Source: Gammaproteobacteria bacterium
Lineage (GTDB): Bacteria; Pseudomonadota; Gammaproteobacteria; UBA6429; Thiohalophilaceae
Length of the DNA stretch: 64,000 nt
Reading direction: 5' to 3'
NCBI GenBank assembly: GCA_030617815.1
Contig: JAUWUS010000004.1
Coordinates: 1-64,000, forward strand
In this document: piece by piece, positions 12,702-63,300 of the stretch
Numbering within the stretch: position 1 is the stretch's first letter
Layout: each line of letters opens with the position of its first letter
Position numbers and translations under genes: made by a program
The notes under the pieces: generated by a model
Database searches by the model: none
What the model saw: the letters and a program-made list of their open reading frames with translations, nothing else
What the model was told of the DNA's origin: nothing

Positions 12702-12964
12702 AAGCTAGTCCCCCACTTAATAATTAGTCCCCCCGCTAAAGAATTACTGTTTGCAAGCAGGGGTGTTTGTTTTATAGTTTAGATCATATATTTGTAGTTT
12801 ATTTTCTCCTATCCCCCAGGAAAAAGTTAAAATATTAAGTTAATTTCTGTAATTTACTATAGAAAACTGATTATTTGCCGACAATAGTAAGAGAATAGCT
12901 TATTTTTAGTTTAAAAACTGTGACTTTTGTCCGGTTTTAGGAAAGTTTTATTGTGGGAGATATT

Positions 12965-15900
12965 ATGGCTCAAGGCCAAAAAAATTCATCAAAAAACCAG
13001 TCGGGAAAAGAAAATCGCGCTTACCCGCGTTATCCGGTTGCATTAAAAGCTGAGCTTATTCTTCAGGGTAAAGGAACTCTGGAATTAATGCTTAGGGATT
13101 ATTGTATTGGTGGACTGTTTGCTGAGCTGGTTGATTCTTCTTTATTGGGTAAGCAGACTTCTGTTTTTGTGCCTGAAATAGGTGATGTGCTTAAAGTTGT
13201 TACCAGTGTAAAAAATGCCGGAGTTGAAAAAAAATTAAGTTTTGATTCGAAAGTAATGCGTGTTGAGAATGGTTACATTGGCGTTTCTTTTATTAATCCG
13301 GATATCCTGGCTGTTCAAGCCATACATAAATTTGCAGCGTCCAGAAAAAAGCAAGATGTTGCTGATACTAAAGAAGACTTCGGTACTACACAAACTGATT
13401 TTAATGGTAAATCTGCCGTGCAGATATTAACCGAAGCTCATCAATTGGTGGGCAACGAATTAAAACCATTAATGGACAAATTCCATAGTAGTATTTCGGA
13501 GCATTTTTTTGATGCAGCAAAAGAAACGTTTGATTTAGCAAAGCAAAATGCGTTATTTGAATCGTTAGGTATTTTAGAAAAAAATAAAAATAAAATAACC
13601 AAATCATTTATAACAATATACCAAAATAAAATTAAGAATTATTCACCTCAGGACATTTTACATGAAGATACGAATGAGGAAGAAAAGGAAATATCTTTAG
13701 AGACTCTCTCTCTTGTTGAAGCCGATGAACTGGATAACTGGTTGTCTATTTCCAGTATTATTACGAATATTGATGCCGATAATCGCGATGAATTAAATAA
13801 AATTGAACGCCGGGCAACTGCTTTGTATCAGGCAAAAATTAATAAGAAAAATAATCCCTTTGGCCCCGCTCTTTTTGCCCAGGCTTTTCAGGAATCATTA
13901 GATGATATTGAAATTAAGCATGCGGTTAAATTGGTGTGTTATACCGCTTTTCGTGATGTGTATTTATCGCTAGCAGAAAAACTTTATGAAAATATTAATA
14001 AATTTTTTATTGATAATGATGTTTTACCGATATTAAAATTTAAGGTGGAATGCTCAGATAAAAAATCCTCCTCCTCAGCAGCTGATTCTGTTCCTGAACC
14101 AGAACAAGAATTTACAGAAGATGTTCCATCTGGTACCCAGGGACAGTCCGGACCAGCCACGGTGCCTTCAGGAAAAACAGACGGACACTCTACCGCGGTA
14201 CAAACTTTTATGCCTGCAAACCGGGGAATGGCTCCTGACTTTTCGGGCGATTTTTCCAGCCAGGGACGAGATTTTGTAAAGTCTATGCATCAACAACCAC
14301 CTGTTTCTGGCGGGGCGGGTGGATCATCTGGAATATTGGATGTTTTTAGTGATTTGCGTGGTTTGCAACAAAATCTTGATCAGGTTCATGCTGGTGTACC
14401 CAGTGATCAACTTTCAGCTGCACCAACAACAGCTACTTTACCTGATGGTGGAATGGCACAACACTTTAGTACAACCGATTTACTGGATGCTTTATCGAGT
14501 CAGCAGTTGACCGGTTATGATTATGCGACACAGTCTGATTCAAGTCAGCTGGACTTTAAAGAAAAAATTGAAAGTATCCTGGCAGTCAAAGGTGGCGCTG
14601 AAAATAAAATTATTAGTGCGCGTGAAGGCCAGGTTATTGATGTAGCCAGTAATGTGTTTAGTTCTTTAATGAGTGACTTTCAGGTCGCAGAAAGTATTCG
14701 TCCCTGGATTAGACAGCTTGAAGTGCCGGTCCTTAAAATGGCAATTATGGATACGGATGTCTTTACTGATACATCACATGTTGTCCGCCAAGTTATAAAT
14801 AAAATATCTGAATTAGAAGTATTAGCCGATACAGACGATGCCGATGAACAAGAAGCGGTAAAACGTGCATTTGACTGGCTGGTTAAAGTCATAAATGAAG
14901 ACTTTGACGGCACCACAAAAGTTTTTGAACGTATTGCTCAACAACTCGATATCCTGATTAAAATTCAAAGCCAGACTTTTGATAATAACTTAAAAGTTGT
15001 TGTTGATGAGTTCCTGGCAGAAGATGAAGTTACTGATGGTGAAATAATTGAGGATGAAGAAGTTGTTATAGATGCTGAAGATGAATGGGCACGTCGTGTC
15101 AGCCGTCTGGAAGAAGGTGACTGGGTTTTGTTCGATGCTTTTTCTGAAACACCAATACGGTTAAAAGTAGGTTGGGTTGCAAGGCGTAAAGGTAAGTTTG
15201 TTTTTGTTAATATATTAGGTAAAAAAGAGAAAGTATTAAAAGCAGAAGAACTCATTGAATTATTTAAAGCTGGGGAAACCCTTGTTCTGGATGAAGCAGA
15301 AGAACCCGCAATGGACCGTGCGCAGTATTCAATGTTACAAAAATTGCATAAACAATTGTTATTTCAATCCACACATGATCAACTTACCGGCTTGATGAAT
15401 CGTCGTGAATTTGAAATTTGTCTTGAGCAGGCCATTGATGATGCAAAAATTGCTAATACTAAACATGCTCTTTGTTATATTGATTTAGATAAATTTAGTG
15501 TTATTAATAATAGTTGTGGCTATGAAGGTGGGGACGCCTTAATAAAAGAAATCTCTGGCATTCTGAATAAACATTTATCTCAAAATAGCGCTTTATCCCG
15601 TTTTAGTGGAGATGAATTTTGTATGCTCTTATGTGGCCATGGCACTGATGATGCTTTAGACGTTGTGGAAAATTTATTAGAAGAACTTAATAATTACCGT
15701 TTTGTTTGGGAAGATAAACGTTTGTCGATTGCTATGAGTATTGGCCTGGTACAAATTAAAGGCCATGGACAAAAAGTTGTAAAATTGCTGCAGGACGCAG
15801 AAGCAAGTTGTGGTGTTGCAAAAGAAATTGGTGGCCATCGAGTTCAGGTTTATCATGAAGGACATGCACGTTTAGATAAGCGTGATGCAGAAATGAAATG

Positions 15901-16645
15901 GGCAGCAAAGATTGATCGCGCACTTGATGAAAATGCTTTACATTTACGTTGCCAACGTATTATGCCATTAGCAATTGATGATAGTTATCATGATCATTAT
16001 GAAATTTTATTAGGTATAACGGATGATTTAGGTGAGCAAAGTGCTCTGCAACAATTTATTCGTGCCGCTGAAAATTATAAACGAATGGCGGATATTGATC
16101 GCTGGGTAATAAAAACAGCATTTAAGTGGATTTCTGATCACAGAACAGAACTTGATCATGTTAGTAGTTTTTCTATTAATCTTTCCGGACATTCCTTGAA
16201 TGATCTTGGGTTAATGGAATTTGTTATGAAACAAATGCGTGATACCAACGTTCCTATTGGTAAGATTTGTTTTGAAATTACTGAAACATTGGGTATTGCC
16301 AGTCTTTCTGATGCCGCAGACTTTATTAAACGATTTAAAACGACCGGGTGTACGTTCTCGTTGGATGATTTTGGCAGCGGTATGTCATCTTACGGTTATT
16401 TGAAAAGTTTACCCGTCGATTATCTTAAAATTGATGGTGTATTTGTTAAAGATATGGCGACCAACCCAAATGATTACGCAGTAGTAAAATCAATTAATGA
16501 AATTGGCCATTTCATGGGTAAAAAGATTATTGCTGAATATGTTCAGGACGACGAAACCATTCAGTTGTTAAAGGATCTTGGCATAGATTATGCGCAAGGT
16601 TATGGTATTGAAAAGCCGCGCTTACTTGACGACATCCTCCGTTAA
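12965..16645 (+). CDS. PilZ-DUF1631-GGDEF-EAL c-di-GMP protein
   Basis: Large cytoplasmic signalling protein, 1,226 residues from ATG 12965, which has a GGGAG ribosome site 5 bases upstream; a GTG at 12953 is in frame but less well placed. The N-terminal PilZ domain has the RxxxR motif at residues 18-22; its second motif reads DYCIGG, Cys replacing the usual Ser. A long DUF1631-type helical region with a Pro/Ser/Gly-rich linker follows (about 130-790). The GGDEF domain has SGDEF at 881-885 and no RxxD inhibitory site. The EAL domain starts with EILLG at 1013, and its other metal ligands, DDFGSG (1134) and LKID, are kept. Both synthesis and breakdown of c-di-GMP are possible; the balance is unknown. 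Confidence 0.9.
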   Translation: MAQGQKNSSKNQSGKENRAYPRYPVALKAELILQGKGTLELMLRDYCIGGLFAELVDSSLLGKQTSVFVPEIGDVLKVVTSVKNAGVEKKLSFDSKVMRVENGYIGVSFINPDILAVQAIHKFAASRKKQDVADTKEDFGTTQTDFNGKSAVQILTEAHQLVGNELKPLMDKFHSSISEHFFDAAKETFDLAKQNALFESLGILEKNKNKITKSFITIYQNKIKNYSPQDILHEDTNEEEKEISLETLSLVEADELDNWLSISSIITNIDADNRDELNKIERRATALYQAKINKKNNPFGPALFAQAFQESLDDIEIKHAVKLVCYTAFRDVYLSLAEKLYENINKFFIDNDVLPILKFKVECSDKKSSSSAADSVPEPEQEFTEDVPSGTQGQSGPATVPSGKTDGHSTAVQTFMPANRGMAPDFSGDFSSQGRDFVKSMHQQPPVSGGAGGSSGILDVFSDLRGLQQNLDQVHAGVPSDQLSAAPTTATLPDGGMAQHFSTTDLLDALSSQQLTGYDYATQSDSSQLDFKEKIESILAVKGGAENKIISAREGQVIDVASNVFSSLMSDFQVAESIRPWIRQLEVPVLKMAIMDTDVFTDTSHVVRQVINKISELEVLADTDDADEQEAVKRAFDWLVKVINEDFDGTTKVFERIAQQLDILIKIQSQTFDNNLKVVVDEFLAEDEVTDGEIIEDEEVVIDAEDEWARRVSRLEEGDWVLFDAFSETPIRLKVGWVARRKGKFVFVNILGKKEKVLKAEELIELFKAGETLVLDEAEEPAMDRAQYSMLQKLHKQLLFQSTHDQLTGLMNRREFEICLEQAIDDAKIANTKHALCYIDLDKFSVINNSCGYEGGDALIKEISGILNKHLSQNSALSRFSGDEFCMLLCGHGTDDALDVVENLLEELNNYRFVWEDKRLSIAMSIGLVQIKGHGQKVVKLLQDAEASCGVAKEIGGHRVQVYHEGHARLDKRDAEMKWAAKIDRALDENALHLRCQRIMPLAIDDSYHDHYEILLGITDDLGEQSALQQFIRAAENYKRMADIDRWVIKTAFKWISDHRTELDHVSSFSINLSGHSLNDLGLMEFVMKQMRDTNVPIGKICFEITETLGIASLSDAADFIKRFKTTGCTFSLDDFGSGMSSYGYLKSLPVDYLKIDGVFVKDMATNPNDYAVVKSINEIGHFMGKKIIAEYVQDDETIQLLKDLGIDYAQGYGIEKPRLLDDILR

Positions 16646-16654
16646 ATTTAAAAC

Positions 16655-16764
16655 CAATCTGAGACACAATTACTGCGTTGCAACTAAAAAAGAGAAAACT
16701 CACTTACTTATGTAAGCTACGTTTTCTCTTTTTTAATTGCGCCTTGTTCTTGAATCTCAGATTG
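16655..16764. repeat. Palindromic repeat family, copy A
   Basis: A 110-base element with terminal arms CAATCTGAGA / TCTCAGATTG. It shares CACAATTACTGCGTTG near the left end and CGCCTTGTTCT near the right end with copies at 16802, 39362 and 50131. Its centre differs from the others and forms its own stem (AAAAAAGAGAAAAC against GTTTTCTCTTTTTT). It lies just after the c-di-GMP protein gene and may also terminate transcription. Confidence 0.8.
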
Positions 16765-16801
16765 CTTTTAATTAAATCTTGATAATTCTATAAAAGGTTA
16801 G

Positions 16802-16901
16802 CTGAGCTGCAAGAGCAAGGCAAAAACTTACGAAAAAGCGGAATTTATATGAAATAAATGAGCATTTTGAGTAAGTTTTTAACGCAGCTATTGTGGCTCA
16901 G
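16802..16901. repeat. Palindromic repeat family, copy B (inverted orientation)
   Basis: A 100-base element bounded by CTGAGC / GCTCAG. Read on the minus strand it matches copy C over CTGCGTT, CTCAAAATGCTCAT, ATTCCGCTTTTTCGT and GCCTTGCTCT. An inner stem (AAAAACTTAC / GTAAGTTTTT) is perfect in this copy. It sits between the converging ends of the c-di-GMP gene and ppc. Confidence 0.8.
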
Positions 16902-16909
16902 ATAGTCTT

Positions 16910-19741
16910 TTAACCGGTGTTACGCATACCGGCGGCGATAGCACTGATTGTGCGGAGTAAGGGGTGCAACCATTGTTCCCGTACCTCATCACTTAACGAC
17001 TCATCACGATATTTTTTAATTAATGCCACCTGAATTTGATTCAATGGATCAAGATAGGGATTACGACGTGTTAATGATAAAGCCAGATGAGGTGTTTCTT
17101 CTAATAACTCGTTTATTTTAGCAATGCTTAATACATTATCAGTCGTTCGTGTGTATTCTTTAGAAATGATTTTATAGACATTTTTTGCCGTATCCTGATT
17201 TTCACAGAGTGACATATAATATTTGGCTATTTGCATTTCACCTTTATATAAAGCCATCTGAGAATTACTGAGTAAGGCACGGAAAAAAGGCCAGTCCTGA
17301 TACATTTTTTGCAAAGTTTCTATACTGTTTTCATTACTGCTTAACCATTTTTCTAACGCACTGCCAATACCAAACCAGGCTGGCATAGTATGGCGTGACT
17401 GTGCCCAACCAAATACCCAGGCAATTGCACGGACTGAACTTTTTGAGCGATCAGATTTTTTACGATGAGAGGGGCGTGAGCCAATATTCATTTGTCCAAT
17501 TTCATACACGGGTGTTGCTTCATAAAAATAATCAAGGAAACCTTCAGTATGATCGGTTAGCTGGCGATACTGATTTTCACCTTCGGTTGCTAATTCAGCC
17601 ATAATTTCAAGATATTCAGCTTTATCGGCTTCAGGCTCTTTGATCAGGTTGCGACTGGCTTTTAGCAAACCGGTTAGTCCCATGGTTAATTCATAAACCG
17701 CAGTTTGTTGATTGCTGTATTTGTATGAAAGTACTTCACCTTGTTCGGTAAATTTAATTTCACCATGCACAGTACCTGTTGGCTGAGATAAAATAGCATC
17801 ATGTGTTGGCCCACCACCACGGCCAACGGTACCACCACGGCCATGAAACATTCTTAAACGTACGCCGCGCGAACGAGTGAGCTCAGTAATTTGTTGTTGT
17901 GCCTGATACAAGTTCCAGACAGAAGCTAGTATGCCACCATCCTTACAGGAGTCTGAATAACCTAACATGACTTCTTGTAAGTTGCCCGAAGACTTTAATA
18001 ATTCAGTATAGGTTGTGTTATCAAATAACTGAGTCATAACCGGTTGGATGTGAGTTAAATCTTCTACAGTTTCAAATAAAGGTGAAACTTTTACATGGCA
18101 GAACCATTGACTGTTCTTTTTACCTACAAGTCCGGTTAACCAGGCAAGGAACATAACCTCCATTACGTGGCTTGCGGCATGGGTCATGGAAATAACATAA
18201 GTGCCAAATGCTTCAGGACTGATTTCTTCACGCATTTGTGTCATGACTTCAAAAACACTAATGGTTTCTGCGGACATTTCACTTAATTTATTTTTATCAA
18301 ATTTAGCGGGTGAGCTATTGATGAGTTTTGCTAATGTTTGTAAACGAGAGTCTTCGTCAAGCTTGGTATAATCTGAGCCATCAATTTGTTTAAGCACTTC
18401 TGCAACAGTTTGGCTGTGTATAGTTGACTCCTGACGAAGATCCAGATTAGCCAGATAAAAACCAAATGTTTCTACCTGACGAATTAAATCTTGTAGTTCT
18501 CCGTCAGCAGAATTTTGATCGCCATGACTAATAAGTGAATCACGAATTAAATACAGATCCTTCAACATGCCCTGTTCGTTAACATAATTACATATTGATT
18601 TTTCAGGTTCTACGCTATTTAAACGTGCTTCGACACTATTCAGGTTGCACTGAATACGATACTGCATAATAAATAGTTTGCGACGATAAGGTTCCTGTTT
18701 AAAACGGTTAGGCCAGTCAATAAAAGCTTGAGATACTTCTTTTTCATCAATAGCGAGTTGTGTTAAAAATTCTTTTGTTGGATGACAAAATAAGCTTGAT
18801 TGTGTCAATATTTTATCGAGCAGCTTAACCTGATTTAGATATTCAATAAGTACTTCGCGTGATTGCATGCGCAAAGCAAGAATAGTTGTTTCAGGTTTAA
18901 CAAAAGGATTGCCATCACGATCACCACCAATCCATGAACCAAATTGAAAAACGCTGGGAACAGTAATGCCGGAATCTTTGCCGTAAGTACGCGCTATGGA
19001 TTTTTCCAGATTGCGATATGTTTGAGGCACAGATTTAAATAAACTTTTACGGTAATAATATAAACCGTTTTTAACTTCATCGATAACCTGTGGTTTTTCT
19101 ACGCGAACTTCATTTGTTTTGTAAAGAATCTGAATATGTTGTTCCAGATTTTCAATAATATTTTCTTTTTTGATCTGACTTAAACGAGGTTCATTTAATT
19201 GATCACTAATAACATAAATACGGCGGATTGCTTCCATTACGGTACGACGTTTTGATTCCGTTGGATGAGCAGTGAAAACAGGAATATAGGCTGTTTGGTT
19301 AAGTAATTCCTGAAGCTGTTCTGCACTAATGTCATCTTTTTGAAAGTCACTTAAGGCATTATGAAAAGAACCTTTCCAGGTAAAGCCTTTAGGACTAACT
19401 TCCCGACTACGTTGTTTGTGCTGAAATTCTTCTTCCGCAATATTGACCAGACTGAAGTAAATACTAAAGGCACGAACAACGTGTTCAGTTGATTGTGGAT
19501 CAAGTGACGCGACAAGTTTATCGAGCCGACGGCGTCTGGCGGAATCATTTTTATCGCGCAGGCTAATATGCCCCTTACGTAATTTTTCAACCGCAGAAAA
19601 TACATCTTTCCCGGCATGATCCAGTAATACTTTCCCCAGTATATTGCCAAAAAGCTTAACCCGGGAACGCAGTTGCTTATCCTGACTAGTGGACATAATT
19701 TTGGTTACTGGAGAATCGATTTTTTTTGCGTTGGCTGTCAT
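16910..19741 (-). CDS. ppc: Phosphoenolpyruvate carboxylase
   Basis: Anaplerotic carboxylation of PEP to oxaloacetate. The motifs are those of bacterial PEPC: VFTAHPTES with the catalytic His, SWIGGDRDGNPFV, FHGRGGTVGRGGGP, and the C-terminus AAGMRNTG. From ATG 19741 it is 943 residues, slightly longer than E. coli (883). An upstream in-frame ATG at 19774 is disfavoured because a TATAAT box (minus strand, 19775-19780) abuts it. A Met at 19696 would give an N-terminus closer to E. coli. It is divergent from pgi. Confidence 0.95.
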   Translation of the reverse strand: MTANAKKIDSPVTKIMSTSQDKQLRSRVKLFGNILGKVLLDHAGKDVFSAVEKLRKGHISLRDKNDSARRRRLDKLVASLDPQSTEHVVRAFSIYFSLVNIAEEEFQHKQRSREVSPKGFTWKGSFHNALSDFQKDDISAEQLQELLNQTAYIPVFTAHPTESKRRTVMEAIRRIYVISDQLNEPRLSQIKKENIIENLEQHIQILYKTNEVRVEKPQVIDEVKNGLYYYRKSLFKSVPQTYRNLEKSIARTYGKDSGITVPSVFQFGSWIGGDRDGNPFVKPETTILALRMQSREVLIEYLNQVKLLDKILTQSSLFCHPTKEFLTQLAIDEKEVSQAFIDWPNRFKQEPYRRKLFIMQYRIQCNLNSVEARLNSVEPEKSICNYVNEQGMLKDLYLIRDSLISHGDQNSADGELQDLIRQVETFGFYLANLDLRQESTIHSQTVAEVLKQIDGSDYTKLDEDSRLQTLAKLINSSPAKFDKNKLSEMSAETISVFEVMTQMREEISPEAFGTYVISMTHAASHVMEVMFLAWLTGLVGKKNSQWFCHVKVSPLFETVEDLTHIQPVMTQLFDNTTYTELLKSSGNLQEVMLGYSDSCKDGGILASVWNLYQAQQQITELTRSRGVRLRMFHGRGGTVGRGGGPTHDAILSQPTGTVHGEIKFTEQGEVLSYKYSNQQTAVYELTMGLTGLLKASRNLIKEPEADKAEYLEIMAELATEGENQYRQLTDHTEGFLDYFYEATPVYEIGQMNIGSRPSHRKKSDRSKSSVRAIAWVFGWAQSRHTMPAWFGIGSALEKWLSSNENSIETLQKMYQDWPFFRALLSNSQMALYKGEMQIAKYYMSLCENQDTAKNVYKIISKEYTRTTDNVLSIAKINELLEETPHLALSLTRRNPYLDPLNQIQVALIKKYRDESLSDEVREQWLHPLLRTISAIAAGMRNTG

Positions 19742-19960
19742 TATTAATAAACTTACTGTTCCAAAAGGCCGCATATTATACCGTCACTTTGTACTAAAGA
19801 CCTCTATTGACAAGCTAAAATAACGGCGAAAAGAGTGAAAAACGGTGAACTGGCGAAAAATCATTCAATATTTACTGTGATTGATTATATATAGTCAGTT
19901 TCTGCTCCCTTTCTCTCGGAAATATTGCATAATTTGGCTACACAATGACAAAAAAATGAA

Positions 19961-21895: not shown

Positions 21896-22951
21896 ATGCG
21901 TCGTACTGACTTCACCTTTGAATTACCTGAAGAACTTATTGCTCAGCAACCTGTTACTGAGCGTACGGCCAGTCGTTTGTTGGTATTAAATGGGAATACT
22001 GGAGCAATAGAAGATAAAGTATTTACTGATTTAAGTAATTTTTTACAGTCAGGTGATGTACTGGTTTTTAATAACACACAGGTTATCCCTGCACGATTAC
22101 ATGGTAAAAAAGCAACAGGGGGCAAAGTTGAGGTATTGGTTGAACGCATTGTTGATGATCATGTTGCTTTAGCACATATTCGCGCCAGCAAATCACCTAA
22201 GTCTGGAACAGAGTTATTGTTTGAGAAAAACATCAGTGCAAAAGTCACTGGCAGGGAAGGTGATTTGTTTGTGGTAAACTTTAATCACAACAATCAAAGT
22301 GAAAATACAGTATTGGGCATCCTTAATAGTATTGGACATATGCCTTTGCCACCTTATATACAACGTGATGATGAAGATTTTGATCAGGACCGTTATCAAA
22401 CTGTCTATGCAGAAAGACCGGGGGCAGTCGCAGCACCCACTGCCGGATTACATTTTGATGCAAAAATGTTGCAGCAATTATCTGACAAAGGGATAGAACA
22501 AATTCACGTTACCTTGCATGTGGGTGCAGGAACATTTCAACCTGTTCGAGTTGATGATTTAAATGATCATTATATGCATAAAGAATGGATTGAATTAACG
22601 AAAGAAAATAGTGAAAAAATAAACCAGGCAAAAAAAGAAGGTCGACGTATTATTGCAGTAGGAACCACTAGTGTGCGTTGTCTGGAATCAGCCGCTTTAT
22701 TTTCTAATAAAGAAGGAGTGTTAAAACCCTATACAGGTGAAACAGATATCTTTATTACTCCTGGTTATGAGTTCAAAGTGATTGATGCTTTGATTACTAA
22801 TTTCCATTTGTCAGAGTCAACATTGTTAATGCTGGTTTCTGCCTTTGCCGGTTACGAAAATATAAAAAAGGCCTATCAGCACGCGATAAAAGAAAAGTAC
22901 CGGTTTTTCAGTTATGGCGATGCGATGTTTTTGACCAGGACAGGAGACTAA
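21896..22951 (+). CDS. queA: S-adenosylmethionine:tRNA ribosyltransferase-isomerase
   Basis: Converts preQ1 at tRNA position 34 to epoxyqueuosine. It is 351 residues from ATG 21896 ([16 protein letters not shown]), the family N-terminus; a longer TTG reading from 21875 lacks support. Conserved segments are [42 protein letters not shown] and [10 protein letters not shown]. It is first in queA-tgt-yajC-secD-secF. With queD and folE2 at the left edge, it shows de novo queuosine synthesis. Confidence 0.96.
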
Positions 22952-22962
22952 AAAAATTGCTC

Positions 22963-23035
22963 ACCACAGAGGTCACGGAGGTTCACAGAGGATTTAATTA
23001 TTGATTTCTCTGTGTTCCTCCGTGACCTCTGTGGT
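22963..23035. repeat. CCACAGAGG-type dispersed palindrome, copy 1
   Basis: Inverted repeat of 28-base arms containing ACCACAGAGGTCACGGAGG and its complement, with a short AT-rich loop, lying between queA and tgt. A related copy occurs at 60549-60665. Flanking AAAAAATTG and TAAATTGTTTT extend the symmetry. This type of element is scattered in many proteobacterial genomes. Confidence 0.85.
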
Positions 23036-23061
23036 TAAATTGTTTTGTAGAATATGAATAA

Positions 23062-38976: not shown

Positions 38977-39354
38977 ATGGCATATAGCGAAAAAGTAATT
39001 GATCATTATGAAAATCCACGTAACGTGGGTTCAATGGATAAAGATGAAACCAATATTGGTACTGGCATGGTCGGTGCACCAGCATGTGGTGATGTTATGC
39101 GTCTGCAAATTAAAGTATCGGATGATGGTGTTATTGAAGATGCTAAATTCAAAACGTATGGTTGTGGTTCTGCGATTGCATCCAGCTCACTATTAACTGA
39201 ATGGGTTAAAGGCAAAACTCTGGATGAAGCAGGCATGATTAAGAATACAGAAATTGCCGCTGAATTAGAATTGCCACCAGTTAAGATTCATTGTTCGGTA
39301 CTAGCAGAAGACGCCATCAAAGCAGCAATCGAAGACTACAAAAGCAAAAAATAA
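38977..39354 (+). CDS. iscU: Fe-S cluster scaffold IscU
   Basis: Scaffold on which IscS builds [2Fe-2S] clusters. It is 125 residues; cluster ligands Cys37, Cys63, His105 and Cys106 are present, with Asp39. The HscA recognition motif LPPVK is at 99-103. It is 26 bases after iscS. The following iscA is unusually far away because two repeat elements intervene. Confidence 0.98.
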   Translation: MAYSEKVIDHYENPRNVGSMDKDETNIGTGMVGAPACGDVMRLQIKVSDDGVIEDAKFKTYGCGSAIASSSLLTEWVKGKTLDEAGMIKNTEIAAELELPPVKIHCSVLAEDAIKAAIEDYKSKK

Positions 39355-39361
39355 TCAGGAA

Positions 39362-39470
39362 CAGTGAGGGCACAGATAATGGCGTTGAAAGCCTCCTCAA
39401 AATGCTCATGTACTTATTGTACATTCCGCTTTTTCGTCAGACTTTCGCCTTGTTCTCTGCACCCTCACTG
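39362..39470. repeat. Palindromic repeat family, copy C, inside the isc operon
   Basis: A 109-base element with perfect terminal arms CAGTGAGGG / CCCTCACTG. Internal blocks CTCAAAATGCTCATGTA, ATTCCGCTTTTTCGT and CGCCTTGTTCT are shared with copy B, and the first of these also with copy D. It begins 8 bases after the iscU stop codon. Confidence 0.85.
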
Positions 39471-39498
39471 CCCCTGAAGTGAATTGAACTAATAAAGT

Positions 39499-39554
39499 TC
39501 CCTCTCCCTCTGGGAGAGGGCTAGGGTGAGGGGAAATTTAAAACTCCTCACCCT
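39499..39554. repeat. CCCTCTCCC-type dispersed palindrome between iscU and iscA
   Basis: Hairpin CCCTCTCCC / GGGAGAGGG (39500-39520), followed by AGGGTGAGG (39523-39531), which can pair with CCTCACCCT (39546-39554). The CTAGGGTGAGGG type of element is known as a dispersed repeat in many gammaproteobacteria. It ends about 30 bases before the iscA start. Confidence 0.8.
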
Positions 39555-48721: not shown

Positions 48722-50107
48722 ATGAAACCGGTAATTGCATTAGTTGGACGGCCCAATGTCGGCAAATCAACACTGTTTAATCGTTTGACGCGTACTCGTG
48801 ATGCACTGGTTGTTGATCAACCGGGTATGACGCGTGATCGGAAATACGGTGATGGAAAATTAGGTGATATTCCTTACATTGTTATCGATACCGGCGGTTT
48901 AAGTGGTGAAGTAGAAGGTATTGATGGTTTAATGGCTCAACAATCCTGGTTGGCTGTTGAAGAAGCAAATATTATTTTATTTATGACGGATGCCCATGAT
49001 GGTTTAACCGCAATGGATGAAGAAATTGCAAAACGTCTGCGCAATACAGGCAAGAACGTTATCCTTGTAGTAAATAAAATCGATGGTTTTCACGCGGAAG
49101 TTGTTGTTGCTGAGTTTTTTGCTTTGGGTTTAGGTGAACCTAAAGGTATTGCGGCTTCACAAGGCCGTGGAGTAACCGCTCTTATTGAATCAACCCTTGC
49201 TGATCTCCCTGAATTTGAAGTTGAGTCAGGTGTTGCTGCAGGAATTAAAATTGCTATTGTGGGCAGGCCAAATGTTGGTAAGTCAACATTAGTGAATCGT
49301 ATTTTAGGTGAAGAGCGGGTTGTTGCGTACGATCAACCGGGTACGACACGCGATAGTATTTATCTTCCTTTTGAACGTGACGGGCAACAATATACCATTA
49401 TTGATACTGCCGGAGTAAGACGGCGGGGTAAGGTAAAAGAACTTACTGAAAAATATAGTGTTATTAAAGCATTGCAGGCTATTCAGGATGCTCATGTGGT
49501 TATTATGGTGTTAGATGCACAAGATACGATCAGTGAGCAAGATGTAACATTATTGGGTTACATCATGGATGCAGGCCGAGCTCTTGTCATCGCTATTAAT
49601 AAATGGGATGGACTTGATCAGGAGCAAAAAGAAAAAATAAAAACGGAGCTTGATTACAAATTACCATTTTTAAGTTTTGCTCGTAAAAAATATATTTCAG
49701 CATTACATGGATCAGGTGTTGGCGATTTATTTGGCTATGTACAAACGGCATATAATTCTGCAATGGCGGAGTTTTCCACACCAAAACTTACCCGGTTACT
49801 GGAATATTTAGTACAACAACATCAACCACCGATTGTAAAAGGGCATCGAATTAAACTTCGTTATGCGCATCAGGGCGGCAAGAATCCACCTATTATTGTT
49901 ATTCACGGAAATCAAACAGAGAATGTGCCTGCCAGTTATCGACGTTATTTATTCAATGCTTTTCTTAAACGTTTAAATTTACACGGTACGCCGATTCGTA
50001 TTGAATTTAAAACTGGTGATAATCCGTTCAAAGATAGGAAGAATAAGAACAATCTTACTAGACGACAGCAGGTTAAGAGAAGACGTATGATGAAACACGT
50101 AAAATAG
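48722..50107 (+). CDS. der: Ribosome biogenesis GTPase Der
   Basis: Two-domain GTPase required for 50S maturation. It is 461 residues. Two complete G domains each have GRPNVGKST (residues about 8 and 180), G3 DTGG/DTAG, and NKxD (NKID, NKWD). A KH-like domain and a basic tail ([10 protein letters not shown]) end the protein. It is last in the ndk-to-der cluster; a repeat element follows. Confidence 0.97.
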
Positions 50108-50130
50108 ACCATTGCACGAATAGCGAGAAA

Positions 50131-50233
50131 CTGGATAACTGCGTTTACCCTCCATAATAATTTTATGAGGGGCATTACAAAAACATCTTCAAAATGCTCA
50201 TGTACTATTATTGCTGGTGAAATGATTATCCAG
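50131..50233. repeat. Palindromic repeat family, copy D (degenerate)
   Basis: A 103-base element bounded by CTGGATAA / TTATCCAG. It keeps ACTGCGTT and TCAAAATGCTCATGTAC from the family, but the right internal blocks are lost. It contains a local hairpin CCCTC ... GAGGG. It lies between der and the convergent hypothetical gene at 50271. Confidence 0.7.
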
Positions 50234-60548: not shown

Positions 60549-60665
60549 AATTCGCCACGAAGGACACAAAGAAAAACAAAAGATTGAACCACAGAGGTTC
60601 ACAGTGTTAGTAATTATTATTTTTTTCTCTGTGAACCTCTGTGCCCTCTGTGGTGAAATTTTTTA
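60549..60665. repeat. CCACAGAGG-type dispersed palindrome, copy 2
   Basis: ACCACAGAGGTTCACAG (60588-60604) faces CTCTGTGAACCTCTGTG and CCTCTGTGGT (60627-60654) across an AT-rich loop. A related fragment, CGCCACGAAGGACACAAAG, precedes it. Same family as 22963-23035. It lies between serB and tadA and may end serB transcription. Confidence 0.8.
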
Positions 60666-62788: not shown

Positions 62789-62830
62789 TACCTAGGATAG
62801 TTTATAAAAAAGAAACACAATTTAACTATT

Positions 62831-62932
62831 GTGAATTTCATTCTTATATTCCCTTGTTTTTAATCAGTCATTCAACCTTATGTTTAATGAGTTATTTAAT
62901 GTGAATTCCATTCTTATATTCCCTTGTTTTTA
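62831..62932. repeat. Direct repeat pair upstream of the transposase-like gene
   Basis: Two nearly identical 32-base segments (62831-62862 and 62901-62932) 70 bases apart, both containing CATTCTTATATTCCCTTG and differing by a single base. They lie 43-145 bases before the start of the leftward transposase-like ORF, so could be binding sites or the remnant of a mobile element end. Confidence 0.75.
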
Positions 62933-63000
62933 TTCTCAGATCCTAGCATTTGTTGATCTTATCTAGCAATTAATTATTGAAGAAAGATAATAATAAAATA

Positions 63001-63300
63001 TCAACATTCAATATTATATCTTTTTATTTCCTTATTTCATCTAAATTTTATTAGTCTGTATAAGGTAAGATTAAATTAAACTAGTGTAGGTTGCAAATAT
63101 AGGTTGCAAAAAAAAATTCAACATTCAATATTGCATTTTTATATTTTCTCTAAAATTTATTAGTCTGTATAAAATAAAATAAAATTAAGTTAACTAGTAC
63201 AGCTTGCAAAAAAATATCAACATTCAATATTGTATTTTTTTATTTCATCTAAAATTTATTAGTCTGTATTAGATAAAATCAAGTTAACTAGTACAGACTT
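63001..63300. repeat. Three imperfect tandem repeats in AT-rich non-coding DNA
   Basis: TCAACATTCAATATT recurs at 63001, 63118 and 63217, each copy followed by a TTTATTAGTCTGTAT block and a TTAACTAGTACAG-like block. Periods are 117 and 99 bases. The units have diverged by small indels. The whole stretch 62789-63539 (751 bases) holds no gene I can support and is far more AT-rich than the rest of the window. Confidence 0.85.

Follow-up and report, generated by a model that had tools for sequence, protein, structure and literature searches.

ERIC sequences have served in strain typing for decades. They occur in the Enterobacteriaceae and Vibrionaceae (PMC10969869), form a single long stem-loop (PMC2267715) and are described as MITE-like elements with TA ends (PMC2229807); the last paper also cites work in Yersinia in which the stability of transcripts was affected according to the orientation of the element. 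REPs are 20-40 nt long and carry a GTAG or CGTC tag (PMC3733652). The elements analysed here resemble REP, BIME and REPIN sequences in being palindromic and extragenic, in the asymmetry between their strands and in the occurrence of paired inverted units (copies A and B, below), but they are far longer and have no GTAG or CGTC as end tag. In them and in ERIC (IRU, RU-1; 127 bp) the conserved parts come in the same order and strand, AAGGC .. GGAG-CTTAC..GTAAG-TGA .. AACGC, and both have a long imperfect palindrome, an intergenic position, mobility and the same better-folding strand. The element is not an ERIC in the strict sense, since it ends in GAGACCTTTGCACG and is about 140 bp at full length, compared with 127 bp and outer arms of TATACCC in ERIC; its hosts also differ. 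Like the MITEs of bacterial insertion sequences, it is short, non-coding and multicopy, has terminal inverted repeats and is missing from the corresponding sites of relatives, but unlike in those MITEs the old copies have differing arms that pair, the core is conserved across lineages with differing terminal repeats, and no partner insertion sequence was found in the genus. Integron attC sites, which likewise combine variable arms, a kept structure, folding of one strand and a position just after a stop codon, were rejected on anatomy: no attC core boxes or cassette arrays were seen, and the conserved parts are internal rather than at the ends. We prefer, with a probability of roughly 0.6, to read the elements as copies of a MITE, a mobile element that is non-autonomous, within an ERIC-type superfamily; one strand of this element would be selected as folded RNA or single-stranded DNA (ssDNA).

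The window, that is the whole stretch of 64,000 nucleotides analysed, contains four elements, hereafter called copies A to D, at the coordinates given in the first-pass annotation, and the arms quoted there for each copy are exactly complementary in the sequence. The copies and the adjacent genes assigned with Pfam are:

12953-16645, plus strand: gene with DUF1631, GGDEF and EAL domains, upstream of copy A, its stop codon ending 10 nt before the copy
16655-16764, plus strand: copy A, outer arms CAATCTGAGA (16655-16664) and TCTCAGATTG (16755-16764)
16802-16901, minus strand: copy B, opposite in orientation to copy A, outer arms CTGAGC and GCTCAG
16910-19774, minus strand: phosphoenolpyruvate carboxylase gene, convergent on copy B
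39362-39470, plus strand: copy C, outer arms CAGTGAGGG and CCCTCACTG
48722-50107, plus strand: EngA/Der-type GTPase gene (two MMR_HSR1 domains and a KH domain), upstream of copy D
50107-50233, plus strand: copy D, truncated and remodelled, inner arms CTGGATAA (50131-50138) and TTATCCAG (50226-50233)

Three sequence blocks had been proposed as common to all four copies. All three are present in copy C and, on the minus strand and with small changes, in copy B, whereas the core of copy A has diverged and copy D holds the first block only. Copies A to C, which were part of the training set of covariance model R1, are matched by it with E values from 3e-20 to 5e-28 (copy A, 3e-20; copy B, 4.6e-27; copy C, 5.3e-28). 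The core model R2 matches copy A on the minus strand (16667-16754, E 5.5e-17) and copy B on the plus strand (16808-16893, E 2.4e-27). The diverged core of copy A reads CTCACTTACTTATGTAAGCTACG, with CGCCTTGTTCT, and its lower loop is GCGTT/GCCTTG; its RNA fold has a z of -9.8, with the G-U-rich fold on the minus strand. Copies A and B are flanked by a convergent gene pair. At 16646-16914 and in the orthologues (L315-L319) they form a unit with similar, inverted ends (AAAAGCNATCTGAG), which is reversed in sister species G003, is joined by a third element in G004 and carries additional DNA of about 350 bp in G005.

Copy C is flanked by a NifU_N gene (iscU-like), whose stop is at 39354, and an Fe-S_biosyn gene (iscA-like; both Pfam), and has the apical motif GCTCA..TTCCGC at 39404-39429 and the lower loop GGCGTT (39381-39386) opposite GCCTTG (39448-39453). 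On its 3' side a short repeat, CCCTCTCCCTCTGGGAGAGGGCTAGGGTGAGGGG, is found at 39498-39535, with further occurrences in several genomes of the genus (L394, L395). The 5' terminal repeat of copy D, GACCATTGCACG, begins at 50107, and its G completes the TAG stop of the upstream gene. An additional hairpin is inserted after TGCGTT, as judged by comparison with loci L017, L020, L029 and L002, and the core stops after CTCATGTACT, the 3' half being gone; copy D was missed by both R1 and R2. The copies in the window are older, shortened or remodelled members with drifted ends. Small hairpin insertions inside elements occupy fixed places, as seen in copy D (50140-50180), in the same four loci, in L333, L335 and L038 and in L415-L416 of G045: the hairpin ACCCTC..GAGGGGCACKACGAAAA directly follows TGCGTT, and CATGGA-type modules are inserted in the element core. 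Modules similar to the latter are shared by the present genus and G045, which belongs to another family.

The family that includes copies A, B and C numbers at least 41-52 members in the genome. With copy B as BLAST query, 41 matches were obtained in its own 2.34-Mb draft genome, and with the covariance model 52, together with 10-49 in each of seven genomes of the same genus. Most family copies are longer than those in the window, and several subfamilies occur side by side. Complete copies are palindromes of about 140 bp, GAGACCTTTGCACGAATAGCGAGAAGCCAGATAACTGCGTT...GCCTTGTTCTCTGGCTTCTCGCTATCCGTGCAAAGGTCTC, bounded by GAGACCTTTGCACG inverted repeats. Rather than the stems, it is two internal loops and the apical hairpin that are conserved (TGCGTT opposite GCCTTG; GCTCA-stem-CTCCGC). 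Searches against Rfam gave only tRNA for the window and no family for 11 loci including an ERIC locus, and phage records held no match to the element.

The first-pass annotation had proposed that arms and inner stems vary together under selection on structure, and had suggested a search of the genome and its relatives with alignment, folding and a count of compensatory changes. That search brought out the family, in which arm complementarity is kept well above expectation. Among 40 copies the pairing of a copy's own arms averaged 19.4, compared with 11.3 for permuted partners (z = 17). In 34 aligned copies a structure of 41 pairs was paired in 88.7 % of cells, against 73.5 % after shuffling and at most 48.5 % when slid; pairing-preserving changes on both sides were seen in 37 of the 41 stem pairs, cells with double changes numbered 203 (48 when shuffled), and covariation was 0.415 (0.153 shuffled, at most 0.096 slid). 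RNAalifold applied to 35 cores from many genera gave double changes in 21 of 26 pairs. The same holds at fixed sites: at six orthologous loci, with pairs taken from each copy's own predicted fold and counts made as pairwise species comparisons, which are not independent events, 303 comparisons were compensated and 188 one-sided, against 32 and 693 expected if the two sides changed independently. The excess of compensation at orthologous sites is large despite the non-independence.

The intermediates of these changes are distributed unequally between the strands. In pairs switching between C-G and T-A, the intermediates on the printed strand were A-C in 68 cells and G-T in 12 (columns 21 and 112, for example, hold CG 18, TA 3, CA 10 and TG 0 times). 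G-U wobbles are the classical route of RNA compensation, and the A-C intermediates of the printed strand are G-U wobbles on the opposite one, which reads GGAG-hairpin-UGA. The bias is alike in both gene orientations, 154:32 for ++ and 45:6 for --, counts that include one fixed A-C mismatch near the ends which is omitted from the 68 and 12, and it recurs in Bacteroidota (23:6). The GGAG..UGA strand also folds better in 34 of 36 of the genome's own copies, in 132 of 137 copies from named genomes among the matches listed, and in 6/6 ERICs. Since the G-U intermediates keep to one strand whatever the gene orientation, it is the fold of one strand, as RNA or ssDNA, that appears to be selected. The proposed selection on structure is in this way borne out, with a folded single strand as its object; cruciform DNA, the other form that had been envisaged, is disfavoured in its plain version because it would make neither strand preferred. 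A mutation bias linked to transcription does not explain the pattern either, the bias being equal with and against the genes.

Complementary arms could also arise without selection, through replication template switching, by which one arm of a quasi-palindrome is copied from the other. This is an established mutation mechanism, and it would suit the widespread compensation, fixed sites included. It gives no reason, however, why the residual mismatches should be G-U on a single, fixed element strand irrespective of gene orientation, nor why the conserved internal loops have not been converted to pairs, and we regard it as decidedly improbable.

The elements sit at gene 3' ends, and host transcription terminators or 3'-end mRNA hairpins, whose pairing is kept because the hairpin ends or protects a transcript, are therefore to be considered. 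At two sites a species lacking the elements has a terminator of its own: an ordinary terminator-like hairpin, AGAGAGTACAGTTAAACTGTACTCTCTTTT, at the site of copy C in G006, and a bidirectional terminator, ATCCAGCTCAGGCTGGATTTTTTT, at that of copies A and B in G007. Replacement of terminators was accordingly tried as a general rule, but most other loci did not bear it out. The A/B region (16600-16960) contains no intrinsic terminator, defined as a GC-rich stem with a U tract; many insertions lie in short operon spacers whose empty forms have no terminator, and at one locus (L028) the native terminator is kept beside the element. The G-U wobbles, moreover, favour the antisense strand. The terminator explanation appears improbable. 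In most copies of the genus (68 ++ compared with 18 --) the strand that folds better runs antisense to the upstream gene; this weighs against the preferred reading too, since selection would not obviously act on an ordinary hairpin at the 3' end of an mRNA.

It had further been argued that the variable arms speak against a transposon with fixed terminal repeats. The wider family contradicts this. GAGACC..GGTCTC-type ends, the common terminal inverted repeats by which a MITE is recognized, are found in 44 copies of the genus, and filled and empty sites alternate between species. Orthologous sites were empty in at least one sister species at ten of the loci examined (A/B, C, ffh/rpsP, L007, spoT/ridA, L022, L031, pheA/hisC, L028 and L009; gene names beyond those assigned with Pfam are our reading of the encoded ends). 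The empty sites are mostly short operon spacers. At pheA/hisC the empty site reads TTATAA and the filled one TTATAGACC..GGTCTA. The 5' end is often abutted by TA or TAA, and no regular or clean target-site duplication is visible. Because of the common terminal repeats and the filled and empty sites between species, the element is of MITE type, and its mobility is well supported.

When the terminal repeat was taken as the boundary, 24 of 26 complete copies in forward orientation started no more than 3 nt from the upstream stop codon, and of the stops facing the other end of the element 0/12 lay within 6 nt; boundaries set by best pairing extension were noisy and had shown no orientation effect. 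The element often provides the final bases of a TAG or TGA stop. Stops next to elements are TAA 20, TAG 10 and TGA 8 times, against 31, 4 and 4 in other genes.

Stop codons are thus strongly preferred targets, and independent hits at one site are conceivable. On this rests the view of the element as an ordinary MITE without function, the pairing of which was inherited from diverse source copies and the orthologues of which are repeated hits on stop-codon hotspots; the coexistence of several subfamilies would fit it. The possibility that certain orthologous copies arose by separate insertion at a shared stop codon also weighs against our preferred explanation. Copy C is nevertheless found in five sister species, with different yet matching arms, and is missing in G006, and copies A and B are found in four, with an inverted unit in G003, and are missing in G007. 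At both loci the species share locus-specific ends and flanks unlike the common terminal repeat, as fits one old insertion. Together with the confinement of the wobble bias to one strand, this makes a functionless MITE rather improbable.

A search of eight draft genomes of the genus for an insertion sequence or transposase bounded by GAGACCTTTGCACG, with at most one mismatch, gave only pairs belonging to elements and a small number of isolated ends; this result and the lack of a clean target-site duplication count against the preferred reading. The arm ends of G045, GTAACTRCTCAG, match the terminus of a resident sequence present in many copies, where contigs break as they would at an insertion sequence, and because of this the arms in that lineage are probably the terminal repeats for this candidate insertion sequence. 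This would be a further likeness to MITEs. G045 also contains a pair of arms only, GTAACTACTCAGC..TGAGCAGTTAC, with the core deleted (L414; G045:C36:63350-63550).

The selected molecule could alternatively be a one-strand ssDNA hairpin used in mobilisation, as in REP/RAYT, IS200/605 and integron attC systems, the RNA fold being incidental. The strand preference belongs to the element and not to its gene context, ssDNA also tolerates G-T pairs, and further hairpins are often inserted within the element, all of which this explanation would accommodate. The ends, on the other hand, act like the terminal repeats of a double-strand transposon, and in G045 they match a sequence resembling the end of an insertion sequence; copies are also kept at fixed sites across species, beyond what movement alone explains. 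We consider a hairpin for mobilisation unlikely, though not negligible.

The ERIC consensus used here has matches in 5376 of 5426 E. coli genomes, at a median of 11 places, which confirms it. R2, a core model whose training set held no Enterobacterales, was applied to DNA with six enterobacterial ERIC loci and recovered 6/6 in the same register and on the same strand. With default filters it gave five hits in 110 kb, all of ERIC type and none elsewhere: two ERICs, one more from E. coli (E 0.04), 21 nt with the same apical motif and a copy in Fukatsuia. The three ERICs lost to the filters were the top hits of their own loci when unfiltered (9.7e-8, 1.3e-4 and 6.9e-3; next best 1.5).

Of 151 gammaproteobacterial genomes, almost every one representing a different family, 72 had a core match at E <= 1e-4. 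When named genomes were scanned with a pattern, hits were obtained, among the matches listed, in Pseudomonas, Stutzerimonas, Halomonas, Salinicola, Chromohalobacter, Chromobacterium, Nitrosomonas and Gallionella, as well as Mariprofundales, Oligoflexia, Alistipes, Rikenellaceae, Prevotellaceae and Tannerellaceae. The core thus occurs, among those matches, also in beta- and zetaproteobacteria, Oligoflexia and Bacteroidota. In the named genomes the flanks form paired arms that are quite unlike in sequence between lineages. A literature search with the core sequence returned, among the matches listed, no paper on the core repeat. As judged from sequence, we conclude that the elements and ERIC appear to form one wide superfamily, new to the literature searched, of which ERIC would be the known member; ERIC looks like a single branch of a much wider element family.

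Under the preferred reading, a MITE with a selected fold, a transposase in trans would act on the terminal repeats, and insertion would take place at TA or TAA, in most cases precisely at a stop codon. GA, with which the element starts, would remake a TAG or TGA stop, and since the stop is so restored, insertion would be harmless even inside operons. After insertion the arms would shed the terminal-repeat sequence, pairing being kept through G-U intermediates on the GGAG-stem-loop-stem-UGA strand. This strand would be selected as folded RNA or, less likely, as an ssDNA hairpin used in mobilisation, RNA being favoured because the strand preference does not depend on the direction of the element relative to the genes. 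The element is at once mobile and a structure under selection. The analysis establishes the family, its covariation, the strand bias, the placement at stop codons, the empty sites and the link to ERIC; the transposase in trans, the choice of RNA as the molecule selected and any influence on gene expression are inferred. If ERIC in Yersinia is a guide, such an influence would likely be exerted at gene ends, on RNA processing or stability.

More tentatively, one may see in the core a conserved one-strand module, of RNA or ssDNA, which would have passed between phyla inside the terminal repeats of unrelated insertion sequences and would be kept at gene ends by the selected fold of the antisense strand, the E. 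coli ERIC being one branch. As the superfamily is present in about half of the gammaproteobacterial families sampled, it offers hundreds of comparisons for ERIC, and the one-strand G-U bias and the stop-codon placement make testable predictions on the working strand and the mode of insertion.

A second palindromic repeat, CCACAGAGG..CCTCTGTGG, is present twice in the window (22948-23050 and 60590-60656). At the infA/clpA site the present genome carries an ERIC-like copy, and in G007 and G004 relatives of this second repeat (L392, L393) are found there. The region 62822-63287 is AT-rich and contains tandem-like repeats of about 70 and 100 bp.
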